DNA of 64,000 nucleotides from Microvirga mediterraneensis (GTDB lineage Bacteria; Pseudomonadota; Alphaproteobacteria; Rhizobiales; Beijerinckiaceae). The stretch is taken from positions 1,240,001 to 1,304,000 of the forward strand of contig NZ_JACDXJ010000001.1 in NCBI RefSeq assembly GCF_013520865.1. The letters are read 5' to 3'. Under the pieces are notes generated by a model. That model did no database searches, was not told the origin of the DNA, and was given only the letters and a program-made list of their open reading frames with translations. Below are positions 4,702 to 62,884 of this stretch, piece by piece; positions within the stretch are counted from its first letter, which is position 1; every line of letters begins with the position of its first letter. The position numbers and the translations under genes are program-made.

Positions 4702-4728
4702 AGGGGAGGTGGACATCCCACCTCCCCT
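4702..4728 (-). terminator. intrinsic terminator after rplU-rpmA
   Basis: A perfect 11-bp stem (AGGGGAGGTGG / CCACCTCCCCT) with a 5-base loop lies 105 bases beyond the rpmA stop. On the minus strand it is followed by TCGTCATTTC, a weak U-rich tract. It separates the ribosomal-protein operon from the GNAT-obgE genes. Confidence 0.65.
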
Positions 4729-4832
4729 GTCGATTTCGGATCGGAGCTTGGCCTTTTAGGGCCTGTCTGGAGCTCTGAACCCGCCGGGTCGGTGTGATGC
4801 CGGCAGGAGCTCCTTCGTTTCGCTCTTGCCGT

Positions 4833-5099
4833 TTACTCTGCGGCCTCTTGGGCCGGTACAACCGATACGAAAGCTCGGCCTTGACGCGTAAGGAATCGGA
4901 CTCGGCCATTGGCCGTGGCAAAGAGGGTGTGGTCTTTGCCCATGCCGACATTGGCGCCGGCATGCCATTTCGTGCCACGCTGACGAATAATGATGTTGCC
5001 GGCGACAACCTGCTGATCGCCGAACTTCTTGACGCCCAGACGACGGCCTGCGGAGTCGCGGCCGTTGCGAGACGAACCGCCTGCTTTTTTGTGAGCCAT
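4833..5099 (-). CDS. rpmA: 50S ribosomal protein L27 (bL27)
   Basis: bL27 lies close to the peptidyl-transferase centre of the large subunit. The 88-residue product begins [16 protein letters not shown] and contains [23 protein letters not shown] and [10 protein letters not shown], all conserved in L27. The length is typical. It follows rplU by 34 bases on the same strand, the standard rplU-rpmA arrangement. Confidence 0.98.
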
Positions 5100-5133
5100 G
5101 GGTTACTCCCGTGTTCCTGTGTGATGCCTGCGC

Positions 5134-5526
5134 TTATTCAGCGGTGGCCGGCGCAGCTTCGTCAGCCGCAGCCTTGGTGGTCTTCTTGGCCGCAGCCTTC
5201 TTGGGCTTCGCGCCGCCGGCGAGGATCTCGGTGATCCGCACCACGGTGTAATCCTGGCGATGCCCGCGCTTGCGGCGCGAATTCTGGCGACGGCGCTTCT
5301 TGAAGGAGATGACCTTCTCGCCGCGGGTATGTTCCACCACCTCGCCCGCCACGGTCACGCCCTCGACGAGGGGGGCGCCCACCTGGGTCGAGCCGTCGTT
5401 CGTGACCATGAGAACCTGGTCGAAGGTGACGGCGGTGCCAGGCTCGCCTGCGAGCGTGGCGACGGTGATGACGTCGTTGGCGGCAACGCGATACTGCTTG
5501 CCGCCGGTCTTGATCACTGCGAACAT
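5134..5526 (-). CDS. rplU: 50S ribosomal protein L21 (bL21)
   Basis: bL21 binds 23S rRNA in the large subunit. The N-terminus [14 protein letters not shown] and the motif [21 protein letters not shown] are diagnostic. The C-terminal extension rich in Lys and Ala (from about residue 103) is common in alphaproteobacterial L21. I chose the ATG at 5526 (130 aa), since homologues begin at MFAVIKTGG; an upstream frame adds eight unconserved residues. It is first in the operon, preceded by a sigma-70 promoter about 145-170 bases upstream. Confidence 0.98.
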
Positions 5527-5669
5527 CTTGATCCTCGTGTTCAAACCCAATTCTCAGCGGGGAGAGCCCCGTTGGATTGGCTTTTTGGCAGTTTCCGGCT
5601 TCGGTTCACGGCAGCCTGCGCTGCCGCATGGATATGAGCAGGCACTCGTGCCCGTTCATAGAGGACGCC

Positions 5670-5698
5670 TACCTACGGGCCGTCCTTGCATTTGTCAA
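5670..5698 (-). promoter_or_regulatory. sigma-70 promoter of rplU-rpmA
   Basis: On the minus strand a perfect TTGACA (5698-5693) is followed after exactly 17 bases by TAGGTA (5675-5670). The leader to the rplU ATG would be about 135 nt and contains the small hairpin GGCAG-CCTGCG-CTGCC, so leader-level control of L21/L27 is possible. Confidence 0.7.
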
Positions 5699-5788
5699 TC
5701 AAAAACCTTGCTTTTGGTGCTTGAAGACCCGCCAAGCCCGTGATATCCACCCGGCCTCAACCAGCGGGCCCGACGGCCTTCGCACCCC

Positions 5789-5878
5789 GGAGAGGTGGCA
5801 GAGTGGTTGAATGCACCGCACTCGAAATGCGGCATACGGGCAACCGTATCGGGAGTTCGAATCTCCCCCTCTCCGCCA
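5789..5878 (+). tRNA. tRNA-Ser (anticodon CGA)
   Basis: The 90-nt gene has acceptor arms GGAGAGG / CCTCTCC, discriminator G and an encoded CCA (5876-5878). The anticodon stem-loop is CCGCA-CTCGAAA-TGCGG, with anticodon CGA reading UCG. It has a long variable arm (CATACGGGCAACCGTATC) and the T-loop GTTCGAATC, all as in class II tRNA-Ser. Its 3' end is the integration site of the island, and the integrase follows directly. Confidence 0.97.
5859..5878 (+). repeat. attL core: 3' end of tRNA-Ser
   Basis: The 20-base sequence gaatctccccctctccgcca at the end of the tRNA gene is repeated exactly at 62865-62884 in the same orientation. The bases on either side differ between the copies. This is the classic signature of site-specific integration into a tRNA 3' end that keeps the tRNA intact. 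Confidence 0.92.
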
Positions 5879-5943
5879 ACATCCCCTAGAAAGCCTTTGT
5901 TTACGCCAAGTTGAAGCCCGGCTTGGGTTTGCGGCTGCCATCC

Positions 5944-5967
5944 TGGTACAAAAGGGTGGTACAAAGG
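5944..5967 (+). repeat. paired GGTACAAA motifs near attL (candidate arm-type sites)
   Basis: Two copies of GGTACAAA lie 13 bases apart, 66 bases inside the attL core. The same pair with nearly the same spacing occurs at 62783-62805, 60 bases inside attR. They could be arm-type binding sites of the integrase or its excisionase; this is inference from their symmetrical placement. Confidence 0.5.
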
Positions 5968-5969
5968 TC

Positions 5970-7577
5970 ATGCGCGTGGCAAGCCCCTGGAAGCATCCCG
6001 ACACTGGCATCTACTACTTCCGCCGCGGCGTTCCCGAAGCGCTGCGTCCGCTCGTCGGCAAGCGCGAGGAGAAGGTCAGCCTGGAGACCCGCGACTGGCG
6101 CGAGGCCGGTCCGCGGCACGCCGTGGTGGCCGCCGAAGTCTCAGCCCGGTGGGAGCGCCTCAGACAGGCGGCGGCGCCAAAGCCGCTCGTCAGGCTCACC
6201 CACAAGGAGGTCGTAGCCCTTGCAGGCGAGGTCTACCGCCGCCGGGTCGCGGCGCACGAGGCAGATCCCGGCGGCCCCGACCGCTGGCGGGACGAGTTGC
6301 TCATGGATGGCCTCTCTCATTCGCCCAAGGCACGGCCCGTCGATCGCTTTCTGGCCCGGCAGTTGCACCGTCCAGCGGTCGAGACCATCCTGGCCGAGCG
6401 CGGGATTGAGGTCGATGCAGCCGGTATGGCGACCCTCATCCGCTTGGCAGCCGAGGCTGTGGAGCAGGCGGACGAGCGCCTCCTGCGGGCAGCACAGGGC
6501 GACTATTCCCCTGACCCTCGCGAGGCGCGCTTCCCGCCTTTAGGCGCTCCTCAGGCCAGTCTGGTCTCATCCTGTGTGCCGTTCGAGTCGGCCTGGGAGG
6601 CTTACCTCGCCGAGAGAAAACCTGCTGCGGGGACAGCGAAGAGCTACCGCGGCGCGATGCGCAACCTGCTAGCCTTTGTTGGCACCGACGATATCGCTCG
6701 AGTGACCGAAGCCGACGTGCGACGCTGGAAGGCTCACCTGATCGAGCGCGGCCTCGATCCCAAGACGATCAAGGAGTCGAAGCTCGCCGCCGTCAAATCC
6801 TTCTACGGCTGGGCTGTGCATGAGAAGAAGGTCGAGGCGAACCCTGCGGCTGACGTCCGGATGAAGGTTCCCAAGAAGCCGAAGCTCCGCGAGCGCGAGT
6901 TCAACGAGCAGGAGCAGAAGCTGATTCTCTCAGCGACCTTTGCCCAGCCTAGCCGACTGATCTCGCCCGAGCACGCAGCCGCCCGCCGCTGGGTGCCGTG
7001 GCTGTGCGCCTATGGTGGAGCGCGCGTCAACGAGATGACCCAGCTCAGGGGTCAGGACATCTATGAGGAGGACGGCGTCTGGGTGATGCGGATCACGCCG
7101 GAGGCCGGCACCGTGAAGACGGGGGTCGCCCGCATCGTGCCGCTCCACCCGCACCTCATCGAGCAGGGCTTTCTCACGTTCGTCCGATCCCGGGGCAAGG
7201 GGCCGCTGTTCTACTCCCCGGCGCGCCAGCGGGGCGGCTCGGCCGAGAACCCAACCTATGTGCGCATGGGCCAGAAGCTGGCCGAGTGGGTGCGAGGGCT
7301 CGGCGTGGACGATCCCAACGTTGATCCGAACCATGGCTGGCGACACCTGTTCAAGACGCGCGGCCGGGCAGCCGGCATTGCGTCGGACAAGCTCGATGCG
7401 CTGCAGGGGCATGCCGCCGGCAGCGTGGGCGCCAAGTACGGCTCCTATCCCGCGAAGGTGCTGATGCAGGAGATCGCCAAGCTGCCCCGCTTCGACGTGA
7501 CGCCCACCCAATCCACTGATCGGCGCCGCAGCGGAGTGAGGGGCGTCGTGCAGGCTGCATCGCAAGAGACAGCATGA
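5970..7577 (+). CDS. tyrosine recombinase/integrase of the island (DUF6538-type N-terminus)
   Basis: This is the site-specific recombinase that most likely inserted the 57-kb island into tRNA-Ser. The 535-residue protein has an N-terminal region WKHPDTGIYYFRRGVP (DUF6538-like), a SAM-like core-binding domain (about residues 200-305) and a C-terminal catalytic domain. The catalytic set is visible: Arg352 (GGARVNEM), His455 and Arg458 (HGWRH), and Tyr490 (AKYGSYP). The ATG at 5970 is 91 bases past the tRNA; the longer upstream frame would read through the tRNA. It appears intact, so the island may still be excisable. Confidence 0.93.
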   Translation: MRVASPWKHPDTGIYYFRRGVPEALRPLVGKREEKVSLETRDWREAGPRHAVVAAEVSARWERLRQAAAPKPLVRLTHKEVVALAGEVYRRRVAAHEADPGGPDRWRDELLMDGLSHSPKARPVDRFLARQLHRPAVETILAERGIEVDAAGMATLIRLAAEAVEQADERLLRAAQGDYSPDPREARFPPLGAPQASLVSSCVPFESAWEAYLAERKPAAGTAKSYRGAMRNLLAFVGTDDIARVTEADVRRWKAHLIERGLDPKTIKESKLAAVKSFYGWAVHEKKVEANPAADVRMKVPKKPKLREREFNEQEQKLILSATFAQPSRLISPEHAAARRWVPWLCAYGGARVNEMTQLRGQDIYEEDGVWVMRITPEAGTVKTGVARIVPLHPHLIEQGFLTFVRSRGKGPLFYSPARQRGGSAENPTYVRMGQKLAEWVRGLGVDDPNVDPNHGWRHLFKTRGRAAGIASDKLDALQGHAAGSVGAKYGSYPAKVLMQEIAKLPRFDVTPTQSTDRRRSGVRGVVQAASQETA

Positions 7578-26147: not shown

Positions 26148-26327
26148 TAGCGGTCCGAGGTGATCGCAGGCGGCACAGGAGGAGGAATGATCCGCTCCGG
26201 TGTCCGGCAAGAGCACAAGGATTAGGAGAGCCGTCAATATAGGTGGCGGTGCCGGCCGTGAACAGGGCGGCGCCTCGGTTCAGAGGACGCACGTTTGTGA
26301 AACGGCACTGCCGTCATGGATCGGAGA

Positions 26328-27590
26328 TCATCCTTCGTGCCGCGGTCCCCGCCCCTGAACTGAGGCTGGGGCCTGTCGCTCGCGGCCCCTGTTGTCGAGG
26401 GCAGCGCGCACCCGATCCGCCAACTCCGATCGCCGGTACGGCTTTCCGATAACGTCGGCTCCGGCCGAGGCCTTTCCCTTCGTCAGAAGATCGTCGTTGT
26501 AGCCGGTCGTCAGGAGGATCCCGGTGCCCGGCGCCCGCTCCCGCACGACATCGGCCAGCGCCAGCCCGTTCATGCTGCCCGGCATCACCAGATCGGTGAA
26601 CAGCAGGTCGATCCCGACTTTGGCCTTGTCGAACACGACGAGGGCCTCGTCGGCATCGCGGGCAGTGAGTACGGTGTACCCGAGAGAGGTCAGGTGCTCG
26701 CACGCGAGGGCGAGGACATCGCTGCTGTCCTCGACTACGAGGATCGTCTCGGACTTGCCTCGCGGTTCAGTTTGCGCCGGATTCCGGCTCGGCTGACGGG
26801 GCACCGCAGCCTGTGCGTCGGCGGCTGGAAAGAGCATTCGCAGCGTCGTTCCCTTGCCCTGCTCACTGTCGATCTCCAGCCGCCCGAGGGACTGCTGCAC
26901 GAAGCCGTGCACCATCGCCAGGCCGAGTCCGGTTCCCTTGCCCTGGCCCTTGGTGGTGAAGAACGGCTCAGTCGCCCGCTCCAGCACGTGCGGCGGCATG
27001 CCCTCGCCCTCATCGCTGATCGTCAGCGCCACATAGTCGCCCGGCGGCAGGTGATGGGCGGCTGCATCCCCGTTCAGATGCACCTTGGAGGTGCCGATGG
27101 TGACGATTCCACCCTTCGGCATCGCATCGCGGGCATTGATCAGCACGTTGAGCACCGCCATCTCCAGGTGCACCGGATCAACCAGAGCCGAGGGCACCCG
27201 GGGGCGCAGGTTGAGCTGGACCTCGATCTGCGGACCGACCGAGTTCTCCAGCATCTCGCCGAACTCAATAATCAGGTTGTTCAGGTTTGTGGGCTTGGCC
27301 TCGAGGCGCGTCTTGCGGGCAAAGGCCAGGAGCTGCTTGGTCAGCCTGGCACCGCGCTCGGCGGCCCGGCTGGCGTTCTCCAGCGGACGGCGCAGGGACT
27401 CGTCGTCTGTGCGCGAGAGCGCCAGCTCCAGGTTGCCCGAGACCACCTGGAGAAGATTGTTGAAGTCGTGCGCCAGTCCGGCCGTGAGCTGACCTATGCT
27501 TTCCATCTTCTGCGCCTGGCGGAAGGCCTGCTCCGAGGTGCGCCGCCGCGTCACGTCGAGCTGGGAGGCGAAGAAGTAGAGGAGCCTGTC
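26328..27590 (-). pseudogene. truncated copy of the LOV hybrid histidine kinase (LOV domain lost)
   Basis: From 27554 the frame encodes HisKA ([24 protein letters not shown]), HATPase_c ([26 protein letters not shown]) and a receiver (LVVEDSSDVLALA, LFTDLVMPGSMNG, GKPYRR). It is nearly identical to the second half of the intact LOV kinase at 35384-37144. Similarity also extends past the stop (about 26298) and stops abruptly at about 27590, where IS-derived sequence begins. The LOV domain and start are gone. It may still make a soluble kinase core from an internal start, but I treat it as a decayed duplicate. Confidence 0.85.
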
Positions 27591-30656: not shown

Positions 30657-31700
30657 TCAATACTCTGGCACTAGGCGGTCCTCGATGAGGGGGATTTCCA
30701 TGTGGCAGGATAGGCCCTCAGGATCATAGGCGATGCTGATCGTTGCATGGCATTGATGGGTCAGTACCCGATGCAGCAGGGTTGATCCAAAGCCCTTGCG
30801 CCGTGGCTGTTCCACCGGCGGACCGCCCCGCTCTATCCATTCGATGGCAAGGCTGCGCCCTGCGGCCCCGTCGTGCATCGTCCAAGCCACAGTGATCTGC
30901 CCGCCCGGAACCGAGAGAGCCCCGTGCTTGGCCGCATTCGTGGTCAGCTCATGCACGGCCATCCCGACTGGCACGGCCAGATCAGCCGACAGCTCCACGG
31001 GCGGCCCGTCAAGGGTGATCCGCCGCGCCCCGCCGTCGTCGTAATGGGCCAGCTCGTTCCTGAGCATCTCGATTAACGGCGCCGTCTGCCAATAGTCCTC
31101 GGTCAGGAGGTTATGGGTGTTGGCCAGCGAGACGATCCGATCCGCAAACGAGCGGTAAAACTCGTCAACGGAATGCGTCGAGCGGGCGGTGGCCCCGAGG
31201 AGCCCCTGGACCGTCGCAAGGGTATTCTTCACCCGGTGATGCAGCTCGCGGATGAGCAGGGCCTGGCGCTCATGCGTCTGTTGTCGTTCCTGGAGGTGCG
31301 CCGCCACCTCCCGTTGCCGCAGCCTTGCGCGAAGAGCGGAGCGTACGCCGTTCACGAGAACGGAGGGGTGGAACGGTCGCTCCAATACTGTGACATTGCC
31401 GAGTAGTTCGGTCAGGTGCTCGACAGGCTCGCCACCACGGTGGGTCAGCAGAATGAAGGGAAGGTCGGACCAGGGCGGCTGCACCTTGATCCACTCGGCA
31501 AGCTCCCGCCGGTCGGCGCTGAGAAGCGCCTCCTCTGTGATCACCGCGCAGGCCGACCCATCCAACCCTGTGACAAGGGCCTCAAGGCTGAGACATATCG
31601 TGGCTTTGATCCCAACCTCGCCAAGAATAGCCGCTGCCACCGTGCCATCCCGCCCGTGGGGGGCGAGGATCAGTACGGACACCTCATCGGCCTGCGTCAT
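30657..31700 (-). CDS. HWE histidine kinase with degenerate receiver domain, coupled to KaiC-like gene
   Basis: The about 347-residue protein has an N-terminal receiver-like fold (about 5-120: VLILAPHGRDGTVAAAILGEVG, LERPFHPSVLV) without the usual acidic pair and clear phospho-acceptor Asp, a short coiled coil, and an HWE kinase core: IRELHHRVKNTLATVQGL (phospho-His), VHELTTNAAKHGALS (N box), IEWIERGGPPVEQPRRKGFG. The ATG at 31700 lies inside the end of the KaiC-like gene (stop at 31684), a 17-base overlap that implies coupling. The KaiC-like ATPase may feed this kinase. Confidence 0.9.
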   Translation of the reverse strand: MTQADEVSVLILAPHGRDGTVAAAILGEVGIKATICLSLEALVTGLDGSACAVITEEALLSADRRELAEWIKVQPPWSDLPFILLTHRGGEPVEHLTELLGNVTVLERPFHPSVLVNGVRSALRARLRQREVAAHLQERQQTHERQALLIRELHHRVKNTLATVQGLLGATARSTHSVDEFYRSFADRIVSLANTHNLLTEDYWQTAPLIEMLRNELAHYDDGGARRITLDGPPVELSADLAVPVGMAVHELTTNAAKHGALSVPGGQITVAWTMHDGAAGRSLAIEWIERGGPPVEQPRRKGFGSTLLHRVLTHQCHATISIAYDPEGLSCHMEIPLIEDRLVPEY

Positions 31701-33201
31701 TGTCGGTCTCACGCTCCTCGAGAAGCGAGGCGCGCTGGCCCTCGAACGTTGGTACGCCTGTCAACACGCCCCTGAACTGCTCCAGCGGCGGACCAACGCG
31801 CAAACCCTGGCTGTCGATCCGGAACTCCCGGATCGTGTCCTCGTGCGAGCCCGTGCGCCGCTTCACCACCGACAGCGCCCGCCGGATGCGGCCGTTCGCC
31901 TCGAAGAAACGCAGCAGCACAACCGCGTCGCTGAGGTAGGTCAGATCAATGGGGGAGACCATCTGGCCGACCATTCCGTGCTGAGCCAGGATCAGGATCG
32001 TGACCACGCCCTGCTGGTTCAGGTAGGTCAGGAGTTCGTGCATCTGGAGCACGATGAACGGCTGCTCCGGCATGGCGTTCAGGTACCCGGTCAGGCTGTC
32101 GATGACGACGACCTTCGCACCGCCTTTCTCGACGGCTTCCCGCACGCGGCCGGCGAACTCGCCGGGCGAGACGTTGGCTGGGTCGATCTGTTCGACGCGA
32201 AGCCGCCCGGCTTCGACGTGAGGCGCCAGGTCGAAGCCGACCCCTTTGGCTCGTTGCAGCAGAATACCGATGGTCTCGTCGAAGCTGATCATCAGGGCAG
32301 GCTCCCCGCGCTCCAGGGCGGCCCAGAGATAGCCCAACGCCAACGTGGACTTGCCCGCCCCCGACGGGCCAACCACAAGGGTGCTCGTGCCGCGGCTCAG
32401 GCCGCCGCCAAGGATGGTGTCGAGTTCACCGATGCCGCTGGGGATCGCATCAAAGGCAAACTCTCTGTGATGATCGGCAGCCGTGAGGCGCGGAAAGATC
32501 CGCAACCCGCCACGCTCGATGATGAGATCGTGGTAGCCGCCCCGGAAGGCCGTGCCGCGCATCTTCGTCACCGTGATCCGGCGCCGTTCCGAGCCGTATG
32601 CCGGTACGATCTGGTCGAGGCGGATCACCGCATGGCTGATGGAGTGCAGGTTGAGGTCGTCCTGCTCGGACGTGAGGTCGTCGAGCATGAGGACAGTCGC
32701 ATCGTTGAGCAGGAAGTAGCTCTTGAGAGCCAGAACCTGCCGCCGGTAGCGCAGGGAGCCTTGCGACAGAAGCCGGATCTCGGACAGCGAGTCGAACACA
32801 ACTCGCTTGGGCTTCACCCGTTCGATCTCCGCGAGGGCCATCTGCACGGTCTCGCCGAGCTCCAGATCGGAGGAGTAGACCAGGCTCTGCTGCTGCTTGG
32901 GATCGAGGCTCAGCTCCGGCGGGACAAGCTCGAAGATCTCGATGCCTTCAAGCGACCAGCCATGGCGGGAGGCGACGGACAGCAGCTCGCGCTTGCTCTC
33001 GGATAGGGTGATGTAGAGGCAGGTCTCCCCCAGCCTGGCACCGGCCATGAGGAATTGCATACCCAGCGTTGTCTTGCCGGAGCCGGGCCGTCCCTCGATC
33101 AGGTGGGCGCGGTTGGCGGCATAGCCACCCGCCAGGATGTCATCAAGGCCTGGAACCCCCGTCGGAATTGGAGCGGCATCGGAAGGCGACGAAAGCGTCA
33201 T
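31684..33201 (-). CDS. KaiC-like tandem RecA-fold ATPase
   Basis: The 505-residue protein has the double KaiC domain. The first has Walker A GRPGSGKT (residues 37-44) and KRVVFDSLSEIRLL; the second has GPSGAGKST and KVVVIDSLTGYLNAM. In the cyanobacterial clock protein, paired acidic residues (FEE, YEE) drive catalysis; here the equivalents are LSES and FDET. By my alignment the Ser-Thr autophosphorylation pair is replaced by Thr-Tyr (DLTYLSD). No kaiA or kaiB is present. It overlaps an HWE kinase gene, a pairing seen with KaiC homologues of non-cyanobacteria. The ATG at 33201 matches the homologous start; the upstream frame is not conserved-looking. Confidence 0.88.
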   Translation of the reverse strand: MTLSSPSDAAPIPTGVPGLDDILAGGYAANRAHLIEGRPGSGKTTLGMQFLMAGARLGETCLYITLSESKRELLSVASRHGWSLEGIEIFELVPPELSLDPKQQQSLVYSSDLELGETVQMALAEIERVKPKRVVFDSLSEIRLLSQGSLRYRRQVLALKSYFLLNDATVLMLDDLTSEQDDLNLHSISHAVIRLDQIVPAYGSERRRITVTKMRGTAFRGGYHDLIIERGGLRIFPRLTAADHHREFAFDAIPSGIGELDTILGGGLSRGTSTLVVGPSGAGKSTLALGYLWAALERGEPALMISFDETIGILLQRAKGVGFDLAPHVEAGRLRVEQIDPANVSPGEFAGRVREAVEKGGAKVVVIDSLTGYLNAMPEQPFIVLQMHELLTYLNQQGVVTILILAQHGMVGQMVSPIDLTYLSDAVVLLRFFEANGRIRRALSVVKRRTGSHEDTIREFRIDSQGLRVGPPLEQFRGVLTGVPTFEGQRASLLEERETDNDAGR

Positions 33202-33371
33202 GGACAGTCTCAACAGGTAAGCGATTTCGATTGGGCCGGCGGTCGAACCGCGATGCTGCGCATCAGGTCCGAGTCCGTCGCACAGGCCGGTAGATCGTCG
33301 TTTGAAGCGCACTTGCGTGTCCTTGTAGACAGGAACTTGTGATCTGTCTGTCCACATGTGCACACTTGGTC

Positions 33372-35260: not shown

Positions 35261-35383
35261 TTGCCGCGGGGCATGTCGGACAGGAGCGGATCGCCACTGG
35301 CTTCGCCGAGGATGTCAGGCTGCGAGTGAGTTCAACGGCTTGATCAGCGATTGTGGGACGGCACTGCCGTCATGGATGGGTGA

Positions 35384-37144
35384 TCACCCTTCATGGCGCG
35401 GTCCTGGCGCTTGGATGGAGGCCGGGACCTGTCGCTCCCGGCCCCTGTTGTCGAGGGCAGCGCGCACCCGATCCGCCAACTCCAATCGCCGGTACGGCTT
35501 TCCGATGACGTCGGCTCCGGCCGAGGCCTTTCCCTTCGTCAGCAGGTCGTCGTTGTAGCCGGTCGTCAGGAGGATGCCGATACAAGGCTCCCGCTCCCGA
35601 ACGACATCCGCCAGCGCCAGCCCGTTCATGCTGCCAGGCATGACCAGATCGGTGAACAGCAGGTCTATCTTGCCTTCAGCCCTGTCGAACACAATAAGGG
35701 CCTCATCGGCGTCCCGGGCGGTGAGCACCGTATAGCCAAGCGCGGTCAGGTGCTCGCGCGCGAGGGCGAGGACGTCACTGCTGTCCTCGACCACGAGGAT
35801 CGTCTCGGATTTTCCTCGTGGTTCAGTGTGCGCCGGATCCCGGCTCGGCTGACGAGGTGCCTCTGCCCGCTGGGAAACAGCCGCCGGAAAGAGCATACGG
35901 ATGGTCGTACCCTTGCCCTGTTCGCTGTCGATCTCCAGCCGGCCCAGCGACTGCTGGACGAAGCCATGCACCATGGCCAGCCCAAGTCCGGTGCCCTTGC
36001 CCTGGCTCTTGGTGGTGAAGAACGGCTCGGTCGCCCGCTCCAGCACGTGCGGCGGCATCCCCTCGCCCTCGTCACTGATGGAGAGCGCCACATAGTCGCC
36101 TGGCGGCAGGTGGTGAGCCGCCGCATTCCCATTAAGGTGCACCTTGGAGGTGCTGATCGTGACGGTGCCTCCCTTAGGCATCGCGTCGCGGGCGTTGATG
36201 AGCACGTTGAGCACTGCCATTTCCAAGTGCACCGGATCGACCAAAGCCGAGGGCACCCGCGGCCGCAGGTTGAGCTGAACTTCGATCTGGGGACCGACTG
36301 AGTTCTCCAGCATCTCGCCGAACTCGGCGATCAGGGTATTCAGGTTCGTCGGCTTGGACTCAAGCCGGGTCTTGCGGGCAAAGGCCAGGAGCTGCTTGGT
36401 CAGCTTGGCACCGCGCTCGGCCGCCCGGCTGGCGTTCTCGAGCGGCCGCCGCATGGCCTCGTCGTCCGTGCGCGAGAGCGCCAGCTCCAGGTTGCCCGAG
36501 ACCACTTGGAGCAGGTTGTTGAAGTCGTGCGCCAGCCCGGCCGTGAGCTGGCCGATGCTCTCCATCTTCTGCGCCTGGCGGAAGGCCTGCTCCGAGGTCC
36601 GCCGCCGGGTGACGTCGAGTTGGGAAGCGAAGAAGTAGAGAAGCCTGTCCTCCTTGTCGAACACGGGTGCGATGAAGCATGCATTCCAGAACGGGGTTCC
36701 GTCGCGCTTGTAGTTCAGAAGCTCGACCGAGACGGCCCGCTGCTCGTGGACTGCTTCGCGAAGCTCGGCCACAGACTCGCGATCTGTATTGGCTCCCTGG
36801 AGGAAGCGGCAGTTGCGTCCAAGCACCTCCTCCTCGGTGTAGCCGGTGAGGTCCTGGAAGGCGCGGTTGGCGAAGACGATCGGGTTGTCCGGCAGATTGG
36901 GATCCGTGAGGATCATCGGCATCCGGGTCATCTCGATAGCGGCAAAGAACACGCTGCCCCGTTCATCGAGACCCGGCCTGGAGATCGTCGCCTCCTGCCA
37001 GTGGTGGATGCCCGGACCGCCCGTGGGGTTGTAGGAGACGTGCTCGTGCTCGCCCGCTGCTGGCACACCAGCGCTCTGCCCGTCGCCCTGCACATCGAGA
37101 GGCGGATGACTGGCTTCATGCCTCGGGTCTTCGTTACGTTTCAT
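35384..37144 (-). CDS. LOV-domain hybrid histidine kinase (blue-light sensor)
   Basis: The 586-residue protein carries a LOV photosensor (about residues 60-180) with the flavin-binding motif GRNCRFLQG, Cys112 being the adduct-forming residue, and NRAFQDLTGY, NYKRDGTPFWNACFIAPV and FFASQLDVT, all typical of functional LOV. HisKA follows with His206 in [12 protein letters not shown], then HATPase_c ([11 protein letters not shown]) and a receiver (LVVEDSSDV, TDLVMPGSMNG, GKPYRR). The ATG at 37144 is preceded by AGG. A truncated duplicate without LOV lies at 26328-27590. The phosphotransfer partner is not identifiable in the window. Confidence 0.95.
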   Translation of the reverse strand: MKRNEDPRHEASHPPLDVQGDGQSAGVPAAGEHEHVSYNPTGGPGIHHWQEATISRPGLDERGSVFFAAIEMTRMPMILTDPNLPDNPIVFANRAFQDLTGYTEEEVLGRNCRFLQGANTDRESVAELREAVHEQRAVSVELLNYKRDGTPFWNACFIAPVFDKEDRLLYFFASQLDVTRRRTSEQAFRQAQKMESIGQLTAGLAHDFNNLLQVVSGNLELALSRTDDEAMRRPLENASRAAERGAKLTKQLLAFARKTRLESKPTNLNTLIAEFGEMLENSVGPQIEVQLNLRPRVPSALVDPVHLEMAVLNVLINARDAMPKGGTVTISTSKVHLNGNAAAHHLPPGDYVALSISDEGEGMPPHVLERATEPFFTTKSQGKGTGLGLAMVHGFVQQSLGRLEIDSEQGKGTTIRMLFPAAVSQRAEAPRQPSRDPAHTEPRGKSETILVVEDSSDVLALAREHLTALGYTVLTARDADEALIVFDRAEGKIDLLFTDLVMPGSMNGLALADVVREREPCIGILLTTGYNDDLLTKGKASAGADVIGKPYRRLELADRVRAALDNRGRERQVPASIQAPGPRHEG

Positions 37145-40925: not shown

Positions 40926-41678
40926 TCACGTTGCCGGTCGGATCGGCGGACGGCCGCCTGTGGGTTCAATTCCCGTAACCTGGGCCGAGGGCTCCTCGCT
41001 GAGCCAGCGGTACAGGATGCCGCCGAGCACTCCACCGATCAGCGGCGCGACCCAGAACATCCAGAGTTGGGCCAGGGCCCAGCCGCCGACGAACAGCGCC
41101 GGACCGGTGCTGCGGGCGGGATTGACCGACGTGTTGGTGATCGGGATGCCGACAAGGTGAATCAGCGTCAGCCCGAGGCCGATGGCAATGGGGGCAAAGC
41201 CGACCGGTGCCTTGCCGTGGGTCGATCCCATGATGATGAACAGGAACATCATGGTGAGCACGATCTCGGCCAGTAGTCCCGAGAACAGGGTGTACTTGCC
41301 CGGCGAGTGATCGCCGTAGCCATTGGCGGCAAAGCCCTTGGCGAGGTCGAAGCCGGGTGCCCCGCTGGCGATGGCGTAGAGGACCGCGGCAGCAATCACC
41401 GCGCCGATGACCTGCGCCACCACGTAGGGAACGACGTCCTTCGCCGGGAAGCGCCCGCCTGCCGCGAGTCCGACCGTCACCGCCGGGTTGAGATGGCAGC
41501 CGGAAACATGACCGATGGCGTAGGCCATGGTGAGCACGCTCAGGCCGAAGGCAAGCGAGACGCCGAGCAGGCCGATGCCGACCTCCGGGAAGGCGGCGGC
41601 GATCACGGCGCTGCCGCAGCCGCCGAAGGTGAGCCAGAAGGTGCCGATCGCCTCGGCGACGCACTTGCGAAGGTCCAT
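40926..41678 (-). CDS. aqpZ: aquaporin Z (first copy)
   Basis: AqpZ is an inner-membrane water channel for rapid osmotic adjustment. The 250-residue protein has six membrane segments and both half-helix signatures, HLNPAVT and VNPARS, with Arg of the selectivity filter in the latter. The start [23 protein letters not shown] is typical; the ATG at 41678 follows GGGGAGAACAAG. A close paralogue lies at 47586-48329. It is directly downstream of mscL, so both osmotic channels may be co-transcribed. Confidence 0.95.
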
Positions 41679-47585: not shown

Positions 47586-48329
47586 TCACTCGGCCGGGGT
47601 GGCAGGCGCGATGCCGGTGACCTGCGCGGAGGGTTCCTCACTGAGCCAGCGGTAGAGGATGCCGCCCAAGGCCCCGCCGATCAGCGGCGCGATCCAGAAC
47701 ATCCAGAGTTGCGCCAGTGCCCATCCGCCGACGAACAGCGCCGGGCCGGTGCTGCGGGCCGGGTTCACGGAGGTGTTGGTGATCGGAATGCCGACGAGGT
47801 GGATCAGCGTCAGGCCCAGGCCGATGGCGATAGGGGCGAAGCCGACCGGCGCCTTGCCGTGTGTGGACCCCATGATGATGAACAGGAACATCATGGTCAG
47901 CACCACCTCGGCGACGAAGCCCGAGATCAGGCTGTACTGGCCCGGCGAGTGCGCGCCGTAGCCGTTGGCGGCAAAGCCCTTGGCAAGGTCGAACATGGGC
48001 GAGCCGACGGCGATGGCAAAGAGTGTCGCCGCGGCGATGACGGCGCCCACCACCTGCGAGGCCACGTAGGGTCCGATGCAGTTGGCCGGGAAGCGGCCGC
48101 CGGCCCAGAGACCCACCGTGACGGCGGGGTTGAGGTGGCACCCCGAGATGTGGCCGATGGCGTAGGCCATGGTCAGCACCGTCAGGCCGAAGGCGAGCGA
48201 CACGCCGAGCAGGCCGATGCCGACGTCGGGGAATCCCGCCGCGATGACCGCGCTGCCGCAGCCGGCAAAGGTGAGCCAGAATGTGCCGATGGTCTCGGCG
48301 GCGCATTTGTGCATGGTGCTGCTGTGCAT
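47586..48329 (-). CDS. aqpZ: aquaporin Z (second copy)
   Basis: The about 247-residue water channel is nearly identical to the copy at 40926-41678 over its whole length, with the same HLNPAVT and VNPARS signatures and the same [11 protein letters not shown] and [19 protein letters not shown] tail. Differences cluster in the second half of the first repeat ([17 protein letters not shown] against [17 protein letters not shown]). The ATG at 48329 follows GGGAGGAG. Two copies in one island suggest a recent duplication or separate regulation. Confidence 0.94.
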
Positions 48330-51137: not shown

Positions 51138-53243
51138 ATGGCACACTGGTGGCGACACACCCTCATCGCAATAGCAGGCCTTGCGGCTGCCTTCCCCCTG
51201 CGCATCCAGATCGATCTCGGCCACGGATCCAGCATGCCCCTCTTCGACGGATCAGCACTCGCCAAAGGCGGCGATGGTGGTGGCAATGGCGGGGGGAACG
51301 GAAACGGTGGTGGAAACGGGAATGGTGGCGGCAATGGAGGTGGCAGAGGCGACGGTGGCGGGAACGGCAACGGGAACGGCGGCAATGGTGGAGGCAACGC
51401 TGGCGGTGGGAACAGCGGTGGCTCGGCCGGAGGAGGCGCAGGAAACGGCAACGGCGGGGATAACGGCAAATCTGACGGTGGCGGGAACGGAAACAGTGGT
51501 GGCAAAGGCGGCGGCGGTGGCAATCAGGGGAATGCTGGCGGCAACGGCAACAACGGAGGTAAGGGCGGCAACGGAAACGCTGGTGGGAAGAGCAATGGTG
51601 CGGCCGGCGGTGGAGCAGGAAACGGGAAGGGCAATGGCGGCGGCAAAGGCAATTCCAACGCCGGCGGCATAGGCGGCGGGGCTGGCAGCGCCGGTGTGGG
51701 GAAGGGTAACAACAATGCCGCTGGCAACAGCGGCAAGGCCAGCCCTGGCAATAGTGGGAAAGTCAATTCCAGCAAGGCCGCGAGTGCAGGTGCAGGTCAA
51801 CGCAGCAGCAAGGGCAGTTTGAAAGCCGGCACACCGGGTGCCGTGGCCGCATCGAGCGGCAAAAGCCAACGAGCTAATGACAAGGCCCAAGCGAGCAGCG
51901 GCAAGACTTCAACGAGCCGGAGCAAGGCTGCGGCATCTACCCCTCAGCCAGCCAGCCGAGCCAAAGCGGCCGCCCAGGTGCAGGCGGCGAAGCCTGCACC
52001 TGCGGTCACGGCTCAACCGACCCGTGCCGTGCCTGTCGTCGAAGAGATCGACCGCCGCCCCAAGCCGCGGCGATCCACGCGCTCCATTGTGGCCTCTGGC
52101 TTGTCTCCGGCGGACCTGGCCCGACTGACGGCGCAAGGGTTCAGGATCGAGACCCGGACCCAGGGTAGCATCGCGACCGAGGTGATCAGGCTTCAGGTCC
52201 CACGTGGCGTCTCGGTGGCGCAGGCCCGGCAGCGGGTCCGCCTCGTCGATGCGCGGGCCTCGGTCGACTTCGACCAGTTCTACTACCTTGATGAGAGCAC
52301 CCCCGCCTGCATGGGCGCCGAGTGCCTGTCCAACTCACTTGTGGACTGGGCCTCTCTCGTGCAGTGGTCAGGGTCGAACGCTTCGCAATGCGGCCCCGCT
52401 CCCCTCATCGGGGTGATCGACACCGGCATCAACGTCGAGCATGACGCTCTGAAGGACCAAGCCATCCAGATCATGGCTCAGCCCGCCCGCCGCGCCACGC
52501 CCTCGTTGCAGGATCACGGCACAGCCATTGCGGCTCTCCTCGTCGGTCGGCCAGGAAGTCAAAACCCCGGGCTTCTGCCGGACGCGAAGCTCGTTGCCGT
52601 GGATGCCTTCTATCGCGACGGCGGCACGGCTGATCGCACGGACGTGACGTCCCTGGTCTCGGCGATCGAGGCCTTGGCCGAGCGCGGGGTGCGGGTGATC
52701 AACATGAGCTTGTCCGGCCCTGCGAACGAGGTCCTCCAGAAGGCTATTGCCGCGGCTCAGGCCAAGGGCATCGTGATCATCGCGGCGGCCGGCAACAATG
52801 GGGCCGGTGCCGAGCCATCCTATCCGGCCGCCTATCCGGACGTCTTCGCCGTCACGGCTGTTGATCATGAGCTGAAGGTGTACCGGCGCGCTACCCAGGG
52901 CTCCTATGTCGACCTGTCCGCCCCTGGGGTGAATGTCTGGACGGCCTCGGCCCAGGGGACCGGCTCTCTCAAGTCAGGCACATCCTATGCAGTTCCCTTC
53001 GTCTCGGCCGCCGCAGGGATGCTACTCGCCTCCAATCCGGCATTGGACGCCAAAGCCCTTCAGACCCGCCTGGAAGCGTACACCCGTGACCTTGGCAGGC
53101 CTGGGCGGGATCCCACGTTCGGGTTCGGCCTGATCCAGATGGCAGGCCTGTGTGAGCCGCCGGCAGACGCTCCGGCGATCGCAACGGTTTCTGATCAACC
53201 GAATGCGCTGGCTGGCAAGGGGCAGACCGTGGACATCCCCTGA
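51138..53243 (+). CDS. subtilisin-like serine protease with long Gly/Asn-rich region
   Basis: The 701-residue protein has an N-terminal hydrophobic segment (about 7-25), a low-complexity Gly/Asn/Ser region of about 160 residues (43-205; GGNGNGG-type repeats), an Ala/Ser/Lys-rich stretch (205-300), a small domain (315-400: GLSPADLARLTAQGFRIETRTQG) and an S8 protease domain with Asp428 (VIDTGIN), His460 (DHGTAI) and Ser616 (SGTSYAVP). The GAGAGGACAGC site precedes the ATG. The Gly-rich part could be a surface linker or extracellular matrix-like segment; S8 proteases with such prefixes occur in rhizobial secreted proteins. Confidence 0.9.
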   Translation: MAHWWRHTLIAIAGLAAAFPLRIQIDLGHGSSMPLFDGSALAKGGDGGGNGGGNGNGGGNGNGGGNGGGRGDGGGNGNGNGGNGGGNAGGGNSGGSAGGGAGNGNGGDNGKSDGGGNGNSGGKGGGGGNQGNAGGNGNNGGKGGNGNAGGKSNGAAGGGAGNGKGNGGGKGNSNAGGIGGGAGSAGVGKGNNNAAGNSGKASPGNSGKVNSSKAASAGAGQRSSKGSLKAGTPGAVAASSGKSQRANDKAQASSGKTSTSRSKAAASTPQPASRAKAAAQVQAAKPAPAVTAQPTRAVPVVEEIDRRPKPRRSTRSIVASGLSPADLARLTAQGFRIETRTQGSIATEVIRLQVPRGVSVAQARQRVRLVDARASVDFDQFYYLDESTPACMGAECLSNSLVDWASLVQWSGSNASQCGPAPLIGVIDTGINVEHDALKDQAIQIMAQPARRATPSLQDHGTAIAALLVGRPGSQNPGLLPDAKLVAVDAFYRDGGTADRTDVTSLVSAIEALAERGVRVINMSLSGPANEVLQKAIAAAQAKGIVIIAAAGNNGAGAEPSYPAAYPDVFAVTAVDHELKVYRRATQGSYVDLSAPGVNVWTASAQGTGSLKSGTSYAVPFVSAAAGMLLASNPALDAKALQTRLEAYTRDLGRPGRDPTFGFGLIQMAGLCEPPADAPAIATVSDQPNALAGKGQTVDIP
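51264..51752 (+). repeat. GGN-type low-complexity repeat within the subtilase gene
   Basis: The DNA is an irregular repeat of GGCAATGGTGGC-like units encoding Gly-Gly-Asn runs. Codons vary at the third base, so the repeat is kept at protein level rather than by recent slippage. Confidence 0.8.
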
Positions 53244-56028: not shown

Positions 56029-56338
56029 TCAAGCCGCCTGCTGTCCTGCCGATCCGAGCGGAATAGCAATGGTGCAGCACACGCCCTCACGCTCGTACCG
56101 GATGTCGAGCTGTCCGGCGAGTTCGCGGGTGATCGTCTGTCGCAGCAGGCGCGAGCCGAAGCCTGAGTTGGGTTCGGTTTCGAGCACAGGCCCACCCAAT
56201 TCGCACCAGTCAATGGTCAGGATGGTATCTCGGCCCGTTTCATTGATCGTCCAGTCCACCTGCACCCGACCCGAGGGTGCTGACAGGGCGCCGTACTTGG
56301 CTGCATTCGTGGTGAGCTTATGGATAGCTGATCGAAAC
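56029..56338 (-). pseudogene. C-terminal fragment of an HWE histidine kinase
   Basis: The minus-strand frame reads SAIHKLTTNAAKYGALSAPSG (N box), DWCELGGPVLETEPNSGFGS and LLRQTITRELAGQLDIRYEREG, the ATPase end of an HWE kinase. The H box and all sensor domains are missing. Upstream of about 56338 the sequence is the 3' end of the second recombinase gene, so the kinase gene was probably broken by a rearrangement with that gene. Confidence 0.8.
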
Positions 56339-57388
56339 GCCGTTGAGCCTTCGGGCTTCTGTACGGGTGCGGGGCTGGTCACAAGCAATCTTTGCCTTCG
56401 TGCGGGCCCCAGGCCGCACCTGAGCGCACAAGTCGGTAGCAATCGATGCGAGCTTGCGCACCCGCGCGGAGCGCCAGCCTTTGCGCCCTGAAGCATAGTG
56501 GGATCCATTTGTGTCGGCGCTGGCGTGGCCCATGCGCACAGCGATCTCCTCGCGGCGGACCCCAGCGGCCGCGAGGTTGGCCCGGTATTGATGACGGCTT
56601 GTATAGAGGCAAATCCGATTGCGCTTACCCTTCCCGCGGACCTTGCGGAGCACGGCTTGCATGCGACGAAGCGCAAGCTCCGGACTCCCTGCCTTCTTGA
56701 CTACCTGCCCTACCGTCTCAAGCAGATCAATCAGGAGGCGGATGTCTCCCTCATCGTAGTCGTCGAGGGGGACATCCCGAGTGGCGGCCAGTGCCCGACC
56801 GTTTTCGGGTGAAAATTTTGCACTCCGACAGCGCAGCACGTTTCCGATGATCTTAGCCTCTGGCCATTCTGACGGCCTCAGACCAAGGTAGCAGCCGTGC
56901 TTCAGGATTCCAGCGGCCGCCCGAGCTTCGTCGGATCCTTCGCTATACAAAGCATGGACGATGCTCTCTAGGCGTCTTTCAGGCAGGTGACGTGCTCGCC
57001 CCGCCGACGTGCGCCAGCGCCTCCTACCTTTCGAGCCTATCGCGGCCTCGTCAGGTCGCTCGATCCTGCGCAGCTTCGCCTCGAGTTCCTCGATCCGCTC
57101 TCTCGGGATCGAGCCCCCGTCCCACATGTCGCGCAGCTCCTGCAGGATGGCTGCGCGGTACTGGCGGAAGCTCGCGGGTTTCAGGTCGTGCGCACGAGCG
57201 ACGACATCGTCGATGACGTCATCGATTGACACGGTTGGGCAACCCAGCTCTCGGCTCAGACGCCGGACCATGCCTGCATAGCGGATGCGATACTGGTCCT
57301 CAGTCTTCGACGAGCGGGCCTGCACCCTGCCGCCAGCATCCGGGCGGGACAGGCAATCAGGATAGGGAGAAGGTTTCAGCATTCTCAA
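56318..57388 (-). CDS. second tyrosine recombinase-like protein
   Basis: The 356-residue protein carries the tyrosine-recombinase pattern: Arg in YLGLRPSEWPEAKI, HxxR in SRHQYRANL, then MGHASADTNGSHYASGRKGW with the His and the candidate nucleophile Tyr. An N-terminal helical region (about 30-110) would be the core-binding domain. It is unrelated to the island integrase at 5970. Its last 20 codons overlap the kinase fragment, and its C-terminus may be altered. The start could also be the second Met. It may mark a separate insertion within the island. Confidence 0.78.
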   Translation of the reverse strand: MRMLKPSPYPDCLSRPDAGGRVQARSSKTEDQYRIRYAGMVRRLSRELGCPTVSIDDVIDDVVARAHDLKPASFRQYRAAILQELRDMWDGGSIPRERIEELEAKLRRIERPDEAAIGSKGRRRWRTSAGRARHLPERRLESIVHALYSEGSDEARAAAGILKHGCYLGLRPSEWPEAKIIGNVLRCRSAKFSPENGRALAATRDVPLDDYDEGDIRLLIDLLETVGQVVKKAGSPELALRRMQAVLRKVRGKGKRNRICLYTSRHQYRANLAAAGVRREEIAVRMGHASADTNGSHYASGRKGWRSARVRKLASIATDLCAQVRPGARTKAKIACDQPRTRTEARRLNGVSISYP

Positions 57389-57905: not shown

Positions 57906-58447
57906 CTCGGGATCTAAAGTGGGTCATTCAGAATGGACTGAGCTTCTTCTCCCCCTCAAGAGGATCCTGTGAACTTTTCCGCGAAGTGCAGGCGCTACGC
58001 GAGCGCATGTAAGAACCTCTCTAATCCCCCCTTGCGAGCCAATTGGCAGGTGATCGGGGGAGGCGCATCTATTGGCGGTGAATATAGGCACAGATAATTC
58101 CATCAATGTTTATCGACAAAGTTATATTCGAGCAGATGCACCTCTACACAATGGCCAAATTACGCTAAGGCACTTTCGGACAACTTCTTGCCCCTTGCTT
58201 GTTTTGGCAGCTTTCTTTTACGTTCTGTAACAGTAATGAGCATTTCTTTGGCTCCCGATGAATTCCATTACAAACGCCTGTCTTCGGGGATCCCACGCAG
58301 CCGCCGCTCTAAAGCAGACCCAGATTGATCTCGGGGACTTTGGACGCGGGAAAAAGTTGTGATATCCGGCGGGTCTCCATTGCGGGTCGGCCGCTGCCGT
58401 CCTTCACTGGACCTTACCTGCCCCCTCATGGATCAGACTATTCCCCC
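57906..58447. other. AT-richer region before the ABC-3C operon
   Basis: About 540 bases with clearly lower GC than the rest, containing several TTAT/TAAC-rich stretches. It should carry the promoter of the ABC-3C operon. I cannot assign a -35/-10 pair with confidence and see no gene. Confidence 0.45.
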
Positions 58448-59388
58448 ATGGCCTCTTGGATGCCCCCTCACCAGCGCTGGTACTGGCAGGCCCTACTGGA
58501 GCGACCCTGCGGCGGCTGCACGGCGACGCCTTCCAAGGCTTCTTCTCCGACGTCATGTCCGAGCTGCACGGCGACGACTTCGTGCCGGTGGGCGCGTTCG
58601 GACGCCGCGGAGACAAGGGGTGCGACGGGTATCTCTTCCAGTCGGGACAGCTCTTCCAGTGCTACGACAAGCTGCACGATGCGGGGCTGGACGTCGACGG
58701 GATGGTCGGCAAGATGGAGAAGGACTACGGCAAGGCCGCCGCTGGCCTCTCCGTGATCATGAAGGAGTGGCACTTCGTCCACGACCTGTTCGACGGCTTT
58801 CCGGTGGAGGCCATCCTCAAGCTGAAGGAGCTCGAGGCCGCAAACAGCCAGCACAAATTCGGGTTCATCGGACCACAGGGGTTCGAGGACCGGGTGCTCC
58901 GGCTAGACGAGGAACACGTGGTCGCCCTGCTCGGCCCGGCGGCGACCGCCGCGGACACCCAGAACATGCGCATGGAGGAGGTCAGTGATCTGATCAAGGC
59001 GGTCATGGCGAGCGTCGACGCCGACCAGCCGGACACAGGCCCCATCACCGTTGTGCCCTACGACAAGCTTGAGACCAACAAGATCACCGGATGCTGGCAT
59101 CACCTGCTGGTGGCCGGGTTCAGCAACGCCCCGCATGTCCGCCACTACATCGACCGTCACCCCGACCCGGAACTCGGAACGCACCTGGCCAGGGTGTTCA
59201 AGGCCCGCTACGAGAACCTGAAGCTGCAAGGACTGAAGCCGAACGCGATCCTTGCCTCGCTCTACGAAGGCATCACCGGCGTCGGAAGCGTGTCGCCGGA
59301 GCGCCAGGTCGCCGCACATGCCCTGCTCGCCTACCTGTTTGAGGCTTGCGACATCTTCGAGGATCATCCCTCCAAGGTGAACGCATGA
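58448..59388 (+). CDS. ABC-three-component (ABC-3C) system protein, first component (start probably frameshifted)
   Basis: This is the large first component of an ABC-3C system. The main frame (from 58456) gives about 310 residues: RLHGDAFQGFFSDVMSELHGDDF, GRRGDKGCDGYLFQSGQLFQCY, MVGKMEKDYGKA and MKEWHFVHDLFDGFPVEAI. The block GDKGCDGY followed by FQCY resembles a restriction-endonuclease-like core. The preceding bases from the ATG at 58448 encode MASWMPPHQRWYWQALLER in another frame, which looks like the family N-terminus, so a frameshift near 58500 is likely. The stop overlaps the next gene as ATGA. Confidence 0.75.
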
Positions 59389-59636
59389 TTCTTCCCGGCA
59401 AACATCTCTCTCCCCACCGCGCCCTTATCGGCGTCGGCGCGGAGATCCTTGCCCAGTTGGACCGCCCCCGCGCGGTGTCCGACCTGTGGGATCGCGTGCG
59501 TGCGGCACGGGGTGGCCGCCAGGCCGCGGCACCCCTCTCCTTTGACTGGTTCGTGCTTGCCCTGACGTTCCTGTACACGATCTATGCGGTGGAGGACGCG
59601 GACGGACTGGTGCGGCCCGGGCAGGGTGCGCCATGA
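59385..59636 (+). CDS. ABC-3C system middle component
   Basis: The 83-residue protein (MILPGKHLSPHRALIGVGAEILAQL, RPRAVSDLWDRVRAAR, LSFDWFVLALTFLYTIYAVEDADGL) matches the small winged-helix-like middle components (MC6 type) of ABC-three-component systems, which lie between the effector-like protein and the ATPase. Its ATG overlaps the upstream stop, and its stop overlaps the ATPase start, both as ATGA. Such tight coupling supports a three-subunit complex. Confidence 0.85.
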   Translation: MILPGKHLSPHRALIGVGAEILAQLDRPRAVSDLWDRVRAARGGRQAAAPLSFDWFVLALTFLYTIYAVEDADGLVRPGQGAP

Positions 59637-61408
59637 TCGTCTCCATCAGCAGCAGCCTGCTGACATTCAAGACCGTGAGGTTCCACGGGGGCCTCAACGT
59701 CGTCCTGTCGACGAAAGCTCCGGGCTCCAACGACAGGCAGACCCGCAACAGCGCTGGCAAGACCAGCCTGATCGAGATCATCCACTTCCTGCTGGGAGGG
59801 AAGGCCGATCCCGACAGCCTCCCCCGCCACAAGGCTCTGGCCGCCCATACCTTCAACGGCCGGTTCGTCATCGGCGGTCGGGAGGTGGACGTCGCACGCA
59901 GCGGCGCCAAGGCGTCGCGGGTGTTCATCGACGAGGGCAGCGCGAAGCATTTCGGGCTGGCCACGAAGAAGGACAAGGAGACCGGCGCAGAGTTCGTGTC
60001 GAACGAGGCCTGGAAGGACTTCCTGGCCCACCGGTTCTTCGACTTCCCCGCGGTGGTGGAGGGCTCGCCCTTCGAGGAGAGCTACACCCCGTCGTTCCGC
60101 GCCCTGTTCGCGTACTTCGCGCGGCGCTACGGATCGGGCGCGTTCCTGCACCCGAAGAAGCAGGCCGAGGCGCAGCAGCGCTGGGACTGGCAAGTGAACC
60201 TTTCGTACCTGCTCGGGCTCGACTGGCGCATCCCCCGCGATCTGCACATGGTGCGGCAGCGGGAGGGCCAGCTGGAGGAGCTCAAGAGGGCGGCAAAGGG
60301 CGGAGCGCTCGGCCACCTAATCGGAACCGTGGCGGAGCTCCGCCCAGCCCTGGTCCTCGCCGAGGCCAGGGCGACCAAGCTGCGCGAGCAGCTCGGCCGG
60401 TTCCAGGTCCATGAGTCCTACCGGGAGATGATGGACCGGGCCGCCCGCGCCAAGACGGAGATGCAGGCTCTCACCCGCCGGGCCGTCTCGCTTCGCGAGA
60501 CCCTTGCCCATCTTCAGGAGGCACTGAAGCGCGAGCGCCAGCCTGAACGGGATGACGTCAATCGTCTCTATCAGGCGGTCGGAATCGAGCTGCCCGAGAG
60601 TGCGAAGCGGCGGTTCGAGGATGTCGAGCGTTTTCATCAGTCTGTGGTGGAGAACCGCAGGCTGCGCCTCCAAGAGGAGATCGAGGGCATCGAACGTGAG
60701 CTCGCTACTGGCGAGATCAGGTCGGCGGATCTGGATGTCGAGCGCAGCGAGATCCTCCGGATGCTGGAGGGACGAGGTGCCCTGGAGGATTTTACCGCAC
60801 TGCAGAAGCGGCTTGCCGACGCCGACGCGGAAGCCGCCTCCCTGCGCGAGCGGTTCAAGGCGGCAGAGGCCCTTGAGAGCGAGACCACACAGCTCGGCAT
60901 TGACCGGAAGAGCATCAAGCGTCGGCTGCAGGAAGACCATCAGCTGCGACGGGACAGGCTGGACGAGGCGATCCTGCTGATCGGCGAAGCCATCGGTCAT
61001 CTCTACGAGGAACGGCAGGGCAAGTTCGAGGTGGAGGCCACCGAGAACGGGCCGGAGTTCCGCATCTCGATCCAGGGTGACCGGGGCGGCGGGATCTCCA
61101 ACATGGAGATCTTCTGCCTGGATCATGCCCTGTTCGCAATCTGGTCAGGTCGCAAGAAGGGGCCAGGCCTCCTCATCCACGACAGCCATCTCTTCGACGG
61201 AGTCGACGCACGCCAGGTCGCGAACGCGCTCGACCTCGGAGCTGTCACCGCCACGCGGTTCGGCGCCCAATACATAGTGGCTCTCAACTCGGACATCTTC
61301 GACAACCTGCCCCTGCCGGACACCATCGACCGCGACGCCATCGTGGTGCCGACCCGTCTCTGGGACGAGAGCGAGACGGGCGGCCTGTTCGGTTTCCAGT
61401 TCGACTGA
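59633..61408 (+). CDS. DUF2326-type ABC ATPase of the ABC-3C system
   Basis: The 591-residue SMC/Rad50-like ATPase has an N-terminal nucleotide-binding half with a divergent P-loop (TRNSAGKTSLIEIIHFLLGG, Lys43), a long coiled-coil middle (about 225-465) and a C-terminal half with NMEIFCLDHALFAIWSGR and the Walker-B-like GPGLLIHDSHLFDGVD (DUF2326). In ABC-3C systems this ATPase is thought to sense invading nucleic acid or replication stress and trigger the partner effector. It is the last gene of the operon and looks intact. Confidence 0.93.
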   Translation: MIVSISSSLLTFKTVRFHGGLNVVLSTKAPGSNDRQTRNSAGKTSLIEIIHFLLGGKADPDSLPRHKALAAHTFNGRFVIGGREVDVARSGAKASRVFIDEGSAKHFGLATKKDKETGAEFVSNEAWKDFLAHRFFDFPAVVEGSPFEESYTPSFRALFAYFARRYGSGAFLHPKKQAEAQQRWDWQVNLSYLLGLDWRIPRDLHMVRQREGQLEELKRAAKGGALGHLIGTVAELRPALVLAEARATKLREQLGRFQVHESYREMMDRAARAKTEMQALTRRAVSLRETLAHLQEALKRERQPERDDVNRLYQAVGIELPESAKRRFEDVERFHQSVVENRRLRLQEEIEGIERELATGEIRSADLDVERSEILRMLEGRGALEDFTALQKRLADADAEAASLRERFKAAEALESETTQLGIDRKSIKRRLQEDHQLRRDRLDEAILLIGEAIGHLYEERQGKFEVEATENGPEFRISIQGDRGGGISNMEIFCLDHALFAIWSGRKKGPGLLIHDSHLFDGVDARQVANALDLGAVTATRFGAQYIVALNSDIFDNLPLPDTIDRDAIVVPTRLWDESETGGLFGFQFD

Positions 61409-62864: not shown

Positions 62865-62884
62865 GAATCTCCCCCTCTCCGCCA
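62865..62884 (+). repeat. attR core: repeat of tRNA-Ser 3' end
   Basis: gaatctccccctctccgcca is an exact 20-base copy of the tRNA-Ser 3' end at 5859-5878, in the same orientation, without the rest of a tRNA. Flanking bases differ. It marks the right junction of the island with the chromosome. Confidence 0.92.

Follow-up and report, generated by a model that had tools for sequence, protein, structure and literature searches.

In Lamassu systems, according to PMC10586767, PMC12799240, PMC12409362 and PMC12904381, the B-type ATPases are thought to recognise DNA ends or DNA of unusual structure and to hold an effector, which upon release oligomerises and cuts DNA; DdmB carries DUF6521 and DdmA is a Cap4-type nuclease effector (PMC12409362). 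ABC-three-component (ABC-3C) systems, as defined in Pfam and RefSeq, place an effector, a small middle component and an ABC ATPase side by side. Further points of comparison are PDC-M68, a PADLOC candidate system, and the YydB-YydD pair of Bacillus subtilis (integrative model 9a6c), for whose genes no stated function turned up in the entries consulted; YydD is absent from the main text of both PMC11383924 and PMC10090944. In this study, we explored a three-gene cassette in a 64,000-nucleotide stretch of Microvirga mediterraneensis DNA (the window; contig NZ_JACDXJ010000001.1, positions 1,240,001 to 1,304,000), which an earlier reading of the letters alone, the original prediction, had taken for an ABC-3C conflict system near the end of a mobile island. 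Our findings make it likely that this is an ABC-3C cassette of the Lamassu superfamily, YydB/YydD-like and of PDC-M68 type by its ATPase, that was gained within a tRNA-Ser island and is built as a Lamassu-like switch releasing its effector, the gene for which is frameshifted here.

Three successive plus-strand frames make up the operon, neighbours sharing a 4-bp ATGA (A/C at 59385-59388, C/B at 59633-59636). Gene A (58456..59388; TTG start, 310 aa in its longest open frame) encodes the first component, or effector, with a restriction-endonuclease-like (REase-like) N-domain, the predicted GDKGCDGY and FQCY motifs, and a CTD10 C-domain at residues 176-302 (Pfam, 37.4 bits against a cut-off of 28.1). 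Gene C (59385..59636; 83 aa) is middle component 6 (MC6; Pfam, 68.2 bits against 27.2, E-value 6.1e-19), and gene B (59633..61408; 591 aa) is an SMC/Rad50-like coiled-coil ABC ATPase of family DUF2326 (113.5 bits against 28.7), with a divergent P-loop, TRNSAGKT, a Walker B segment, LLIHDS, and predicted long helices that fit the coiled coil. With the middle protein well over the MC6 cut-off, the ABC-3C identity is upheld; chance open reading frames are ruled out by the Pfam and PADLOC profile scores. Other searches returned less: MC6 is the sole Pfam match of gene C, which has no PADLOC match up to E 1; the NCBIfam scan gave nothing useful for the cassette; and by sequence the PDB yielded nothing related to A, while for B no hit reached a convincing E-value. 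A promoter and terminator scan was uninformative (0 promoter-like sites against 0.8 in shuffles).

How does the locus compare with these systems? The ABC-3C definition describes it well: effector, middle component and ATPase are adjacent, CTD10, MC6 and DUF2326 (the P-loop coiled-coil ATPase) all score over cut-off, and order and overlaps are the same, but the first gene is frameshifted near its start and its N-domain is without a Pfam match up to E 1. Gene B matches PDC-M68B over its full length (PADLOC, E 1.7e-138; residues 1-590, profile 1-581 of 581), whereas A matches PDC-M68A over the C-domain only (E 8.4e-20; residues 168-302, profile 116-251 of 253). The PDC-M68A profile fits an HNH-type effector throughout (locus L009, match over 1-251, E 2e-97), while the N-domain here is REase-like, and cassettes of this kind group apart on the B tree. 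With Lamassu type II (LmuACB or DdmABC) the cassette shares an LmuB-like ATPase, yet C matches MC6 and not DUF6521, and the N-domain of A has no Pfam match; LmuB models hit B weakly, and one LmuA model (PDLC03852) hits residues 17-118 of A (E 4.2e-9). Likeness to YydB is limited to the C-domain of A. The cassette is a genuine and unexceptional representative of an established conflict-system family, carried on a mobile island.

The start of gene A

The original prediction had the operon begin at 58448. The ATG there opens a different frame, and the frame of A is open only from the TTG at 58456. DNA alignment with the gene of Microvirga soli (M. soli) indicates why: near 58503, at about codon 19, the window is one base short, and this shortfall is the only insertion or deletion (indel) within the three genes relative to M. 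soli. The frame from 58448 gives MASWMPPHQRWYWQALLE and then departs from that of A, whereas the M. soli counterpart reads MTSWMTSEQRWQWQALLELTLRRLHGD in a single frame. The segment 58448..58503 (plus strand), which resembles MTSWMTSEQRWQWQALLE of the M. soli gene, is what is left of the ancestral gene A start, severed by the missing base; the leader before it, 58337..58447 (plus strand), is common to both genomes by DNA comparison. Gene A of M. soli is 79% identical to that of the window from residue 17, and the first 15-16 residues of the window protein lack homology to relatives, no match of which starts before residue 16 (HMMER) or 17 (BLAST) once copies from the same genome are set aside. 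The shortfall accounts for this non-homologous N-terminus.

What the missing base means for the strain is less easily settled. It may be a recent lesion, or be tolerated through a later start that would yield A without its first helix, or be a sequencing error. Programmed frameshifting was also considered; no slippery run is present at the site, as judged by eye only. As to indels elsewhere in the window, the 3HCDH gene at its end has none from 63181 on in five alignments to sister genomes (L060, L064, L065, L067 and L068), and the interval 1718-5878 has 5 short ones relative to genome G017 and 7 relative to G021, coding and non-coding sequence pooled.

The strongest competitor to our reading, which we rate at somewhat under an even chance, is that the cassette is a recently inactivated relic, in which the effector has lost its start and its first helix and no functional A is made. 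The solitary one-base difference near codon 19 and the 15-16 unmatched residues are what such a loss would leave, and in the A protein of an intact relative a helix is predicted at residues 7-23. Yet the remaining ~294 codons of A are open and constrained, the ratio of nonsynonymous to synonymous substitutions (dN/dS) between window and M. soli being 0.23 for A, 0.10 for B and 0.04 for C. Moreover, the dN of A to locus L003 is the same for the window (0.282) as for the intact M. soli gene (0.281), so that A does not appear to have been sped up. Against such an unaccelerated A weighs its dN/dS to L003, 0.32 for the window and 0.21 for M. soli; the higher window value is due to a lower dS, and gene B shows the same tilt (0.20 and 0.14). 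The first helix may itself be dispensable, given that several matches to REase folds start only at model residue 13-28, and the missing base may be a sequencing error. In view of the frameshift in the first component, a working system cannot be assumed in this strain.

Effector active site and ATPase switch

The REase-like fold proposed for the first component finds support in the predicted model of A from the closest relative, which has a restriction-endonuclease-like N-domain, with a predicted PD-(D/E)XK core, and a YydB-like C-domain. Across 21 aligned REase-type A proteins, F45, G55, D56, D60, G61 and K89 (M. soli numbering) are invariant. The lysine of the (D/E/Q)xK motif III is found in none of them: at position 73, where QxK nucleases carry it, 20 have Tyr and one His, and Gln71, two residues earlier, is Ala in 3. 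In the predicted model, K89 lies on helix 83-100, which follows the third core strand (68-73). The alignment includes L023, a REase-type A without Pfam CTD10; left out were L038 (where the in-frame N-part of A is not HNH-like), L042 and L011 (where no A turned up), and L012, L032, L035 and L043-L047 (distant or partial only), and second copies of one place (e.g. L004 and L015, of L002) were not counted.

Could the N-domain then be a degenerate nuclease, which binds DNA or another ligand without cutting, any toxicity arising by another route? The Tyr or His at the motif III position in all 21 proteins would agree with this, as would the Ala substitutions at Gln71. We nonetheless regard it as unlikely, because Asp56, Asp60 and Lys89 are invariant in the same 21 proteins, Lys89 is placed on the helix that follows core strand 3, and PMC1913061 describes several PD-(D/E)XK families in which the motif III lysine has shifted to the following helix. 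K89 would, by analogy, take the role of such a migrated lysine.

The predicted model of B has an SMC/Rad50-type fold, with B. subtilis YydD as its best match and Lamassu LmuB as the next; YydD and four Lamassu entries outrank repair proteins, two of them by narrow margins. ABC ATPases usually carry a catalytic Glu after the Walker B Asp. In B this place is occupied by Ser518, nearly invariant in 18 aligned sequences (L032 included), throughout which His516 and Asp517 do not vary. Since the catalytic Glu is replaced by Ser in nearly all aligned B proteins, B is probably an ATP-bound switch with little hydrolysis. Lamassu type II differs here too, as LmuB is generally reported with Gln at this position (PMC10586767). 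As a separate matter, the Pfam CTD10 model also hits the coiled coil of B (residues 290-415), with 55.1 bits as against 37.4 on the A of the same operon. A domain common to the two regions was rejected when profiles of our own gave no match (hhalign probability 0.2%), and the label on B possibly reflects a mixed Pfam model. Gene B is also matched by phrog_5467 (E 1.3e-37), a PHROGs phage family with no function assigned there, and phage-borne relatives of B therefore exist.

CTD10-like C-domains, MC6 and DUF2326 accompany two types of effector, REase-like and HNH. In the loci examined, 21 effectors are REase-like and 8 are of HNH type, the latter called by sequence pattern, two of them being Pfam-scanned (HNH_2, one below cut-off) and one PADLOC-scanned. 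One REase-like case, L023, stands apart: it has the same N-domain, no Pfam CTD10, and neither B nor C in flanks of ~1.5 kb. On a tree of 28 B proteins (20 REase, 8 HNH; L023 and L032 absent), each effector type appears as a single change with 100/99 support. Frequent exchange of effectors is thus not supported, and in this sample effector and ATPase mostly travel together; deep placements are unsure on account of long branches (L025, L010, L029, L013, L075 and L074).

Taking effector and ATPase together, we tentatively suggest, as less likely than not, that the clade's A proteins constitute an effector lineage that has been little described. Such effectors would have a restriction-endonuclease fold, perhaps Mrr-like by one motif, whose catalytic lysine was relocated from strand 3 to the helix after it, leaving Tyr behind, and would be held through CTD10 on an ATP-bound, hydrolysis-poor switch of YydD type. 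They may have been inherited with their ATPase as a single ancient unit, on plasmids of Streptomyces and Hymenobacter as well as in islands of Alphaproteobacteria, and separately from an HNH-armed sister group.

Profiles and models identify the parts (B as a short Rad50/SMC-like coiled-coil ATPase, C as MC6, A as REase-like with CTD10), and the later steps are borrowed from characterised Lamassu systems, whose scheme is our best guess here because of the domain matches. A dimer of B, together with C, would use CTD10 to keep A silent. Clamping of B onto DNA ends, or onto abnormal replicating DNA from a phage or plasmid, would release A; the freed A would oligomerise and cut DNA, so that the invader is stopped or the cell killed. 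By this analogy, the cassette may serve an anti-phage or anti-plasmid role.

Island setting and spread

The mobile island named in the original prediction is well borne out. It spans 57 kb (5879-62884) in a tRNA-Ser(CGA) gene at 5789..5878 (plus strand), where the left attachment repeat (attL) occupies 5859-5878; the right one (attR, 62865..62884, plus strand), near which the cassette lies as proposed, is a 20-bp copy of the tRNA 3' end. Beside the tRNA, the plus-strand frame 5811..7577 carries a tyrosine integrase (phrog_1, E 2.1e-29; DUF6538 and Phage_int_SAM_1 over cut-off, Phage_integrase under); as the frame begins within the tRNA, the true start is further downstream. One sister genome, G003, has an empty site, with ~80 bp between the tRNA and the 3' flank, and in G017 and G021 about 19 kb and 12.5 kb separate the same tRNA-Ser from the same 3HCDH gene, with no island match longer than 150 bases at E 1e-15. 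The AT-richer pocket in which the operon was said to sit holds for the flanks (58.7 and 58.9% GC at 57-59 kb, 56.7% at 61-62 kb) and fails for the operon body (65.2 and 66.3% at 59-61 kb).

Other features of the island include a second tyrosine-recombinase-like protein near attR (56318-57388, minus strand; phrog_1, E 2.8e-6, no Pfam match) and long direct repeats of 86-89% identity (26292-27120 with 35348-36179; 40969-41268 with 47611-47910), which are probably duplications. A subtilase (51138-53243; PF00082, E 6e-36) contains three 30-nt direct repeats at 51276-51494 with strong AT skew, and a KaiC-like ATPase adjoins an HWE histidine kinase at 30660-33363 (minus strand).

Occurrence of the cassette is patchy. 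Counting the genome itself, in which B is single-copy, B is present in 10 and A in 8 of 200 relative genomes, PDC-M68B in 9 of 385 genomes of the class (E <= 1e-20), and MC6 in 15 of 398 genomes of the phylum (12 over cut-off). Gene B is further found on 45 of 72,556 plasmid records, ten of them predicted conjugative, and has no match among 50,697 phage records at E <= 1e-10. Core genes are ruled out by this patchiness and by the plasmid records. RefSeq uses the names "ABC-three component system protein" and "middle component 6" on 24 of the 25 plasmid matches listed, and all three genes bear ABC-3C names at the six plasmid loci inspected. Two family cassettes (L071, L072) lie on plasmids typed as conjugative, one of them beside an AbiE toxin-antitoxin pair.

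Versions from the same genus are only 44-45% identical, in two genomes (one 18% contaminated), against 68% for a Bosea plasmid, which suggests, at the sequence level, that the cassette has spread by horizontal transfer. The two closest relatives have integrase-like genes immediately upstream, scoring 53.5 bits in L002 and 25.7 bits, under the Pfam cut-off of 27.1, in L003, and only 58337-61408 is common to the window and the 20 kb around the M. soli operon, an exchange of cassette size. That the operon might be a DNA-repair or chromosome-maintenance module, as the resemblance of B to Rad50/SMC heads could imply, is very improbable given the patchy and plasmid-borne distribution, these upstream integrase-like genes, and the ranking of YydD and four Lamassu entries above repair proteins, narrow as it is for two of them.

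We found no published test of the branch that combines a REase-like effector with CTD10, MC6 and DUF2326, a weak negative that rests on literature listings and excerpts, MC6 being ambiguous as a search word. Public annotation already has a name for the family, but the effector domain matches nothing in Pfam. The frameshift carries a practical warning, since profile matches alone imply a complete system even where the start of the effector is out of frame. For the family, the invariant Asp56, Asp60 and Lys89 of A and the Asp-Ser of the B Walker motif provide precise mutants for testing, and the active site of the effector is worth a test at the bench.
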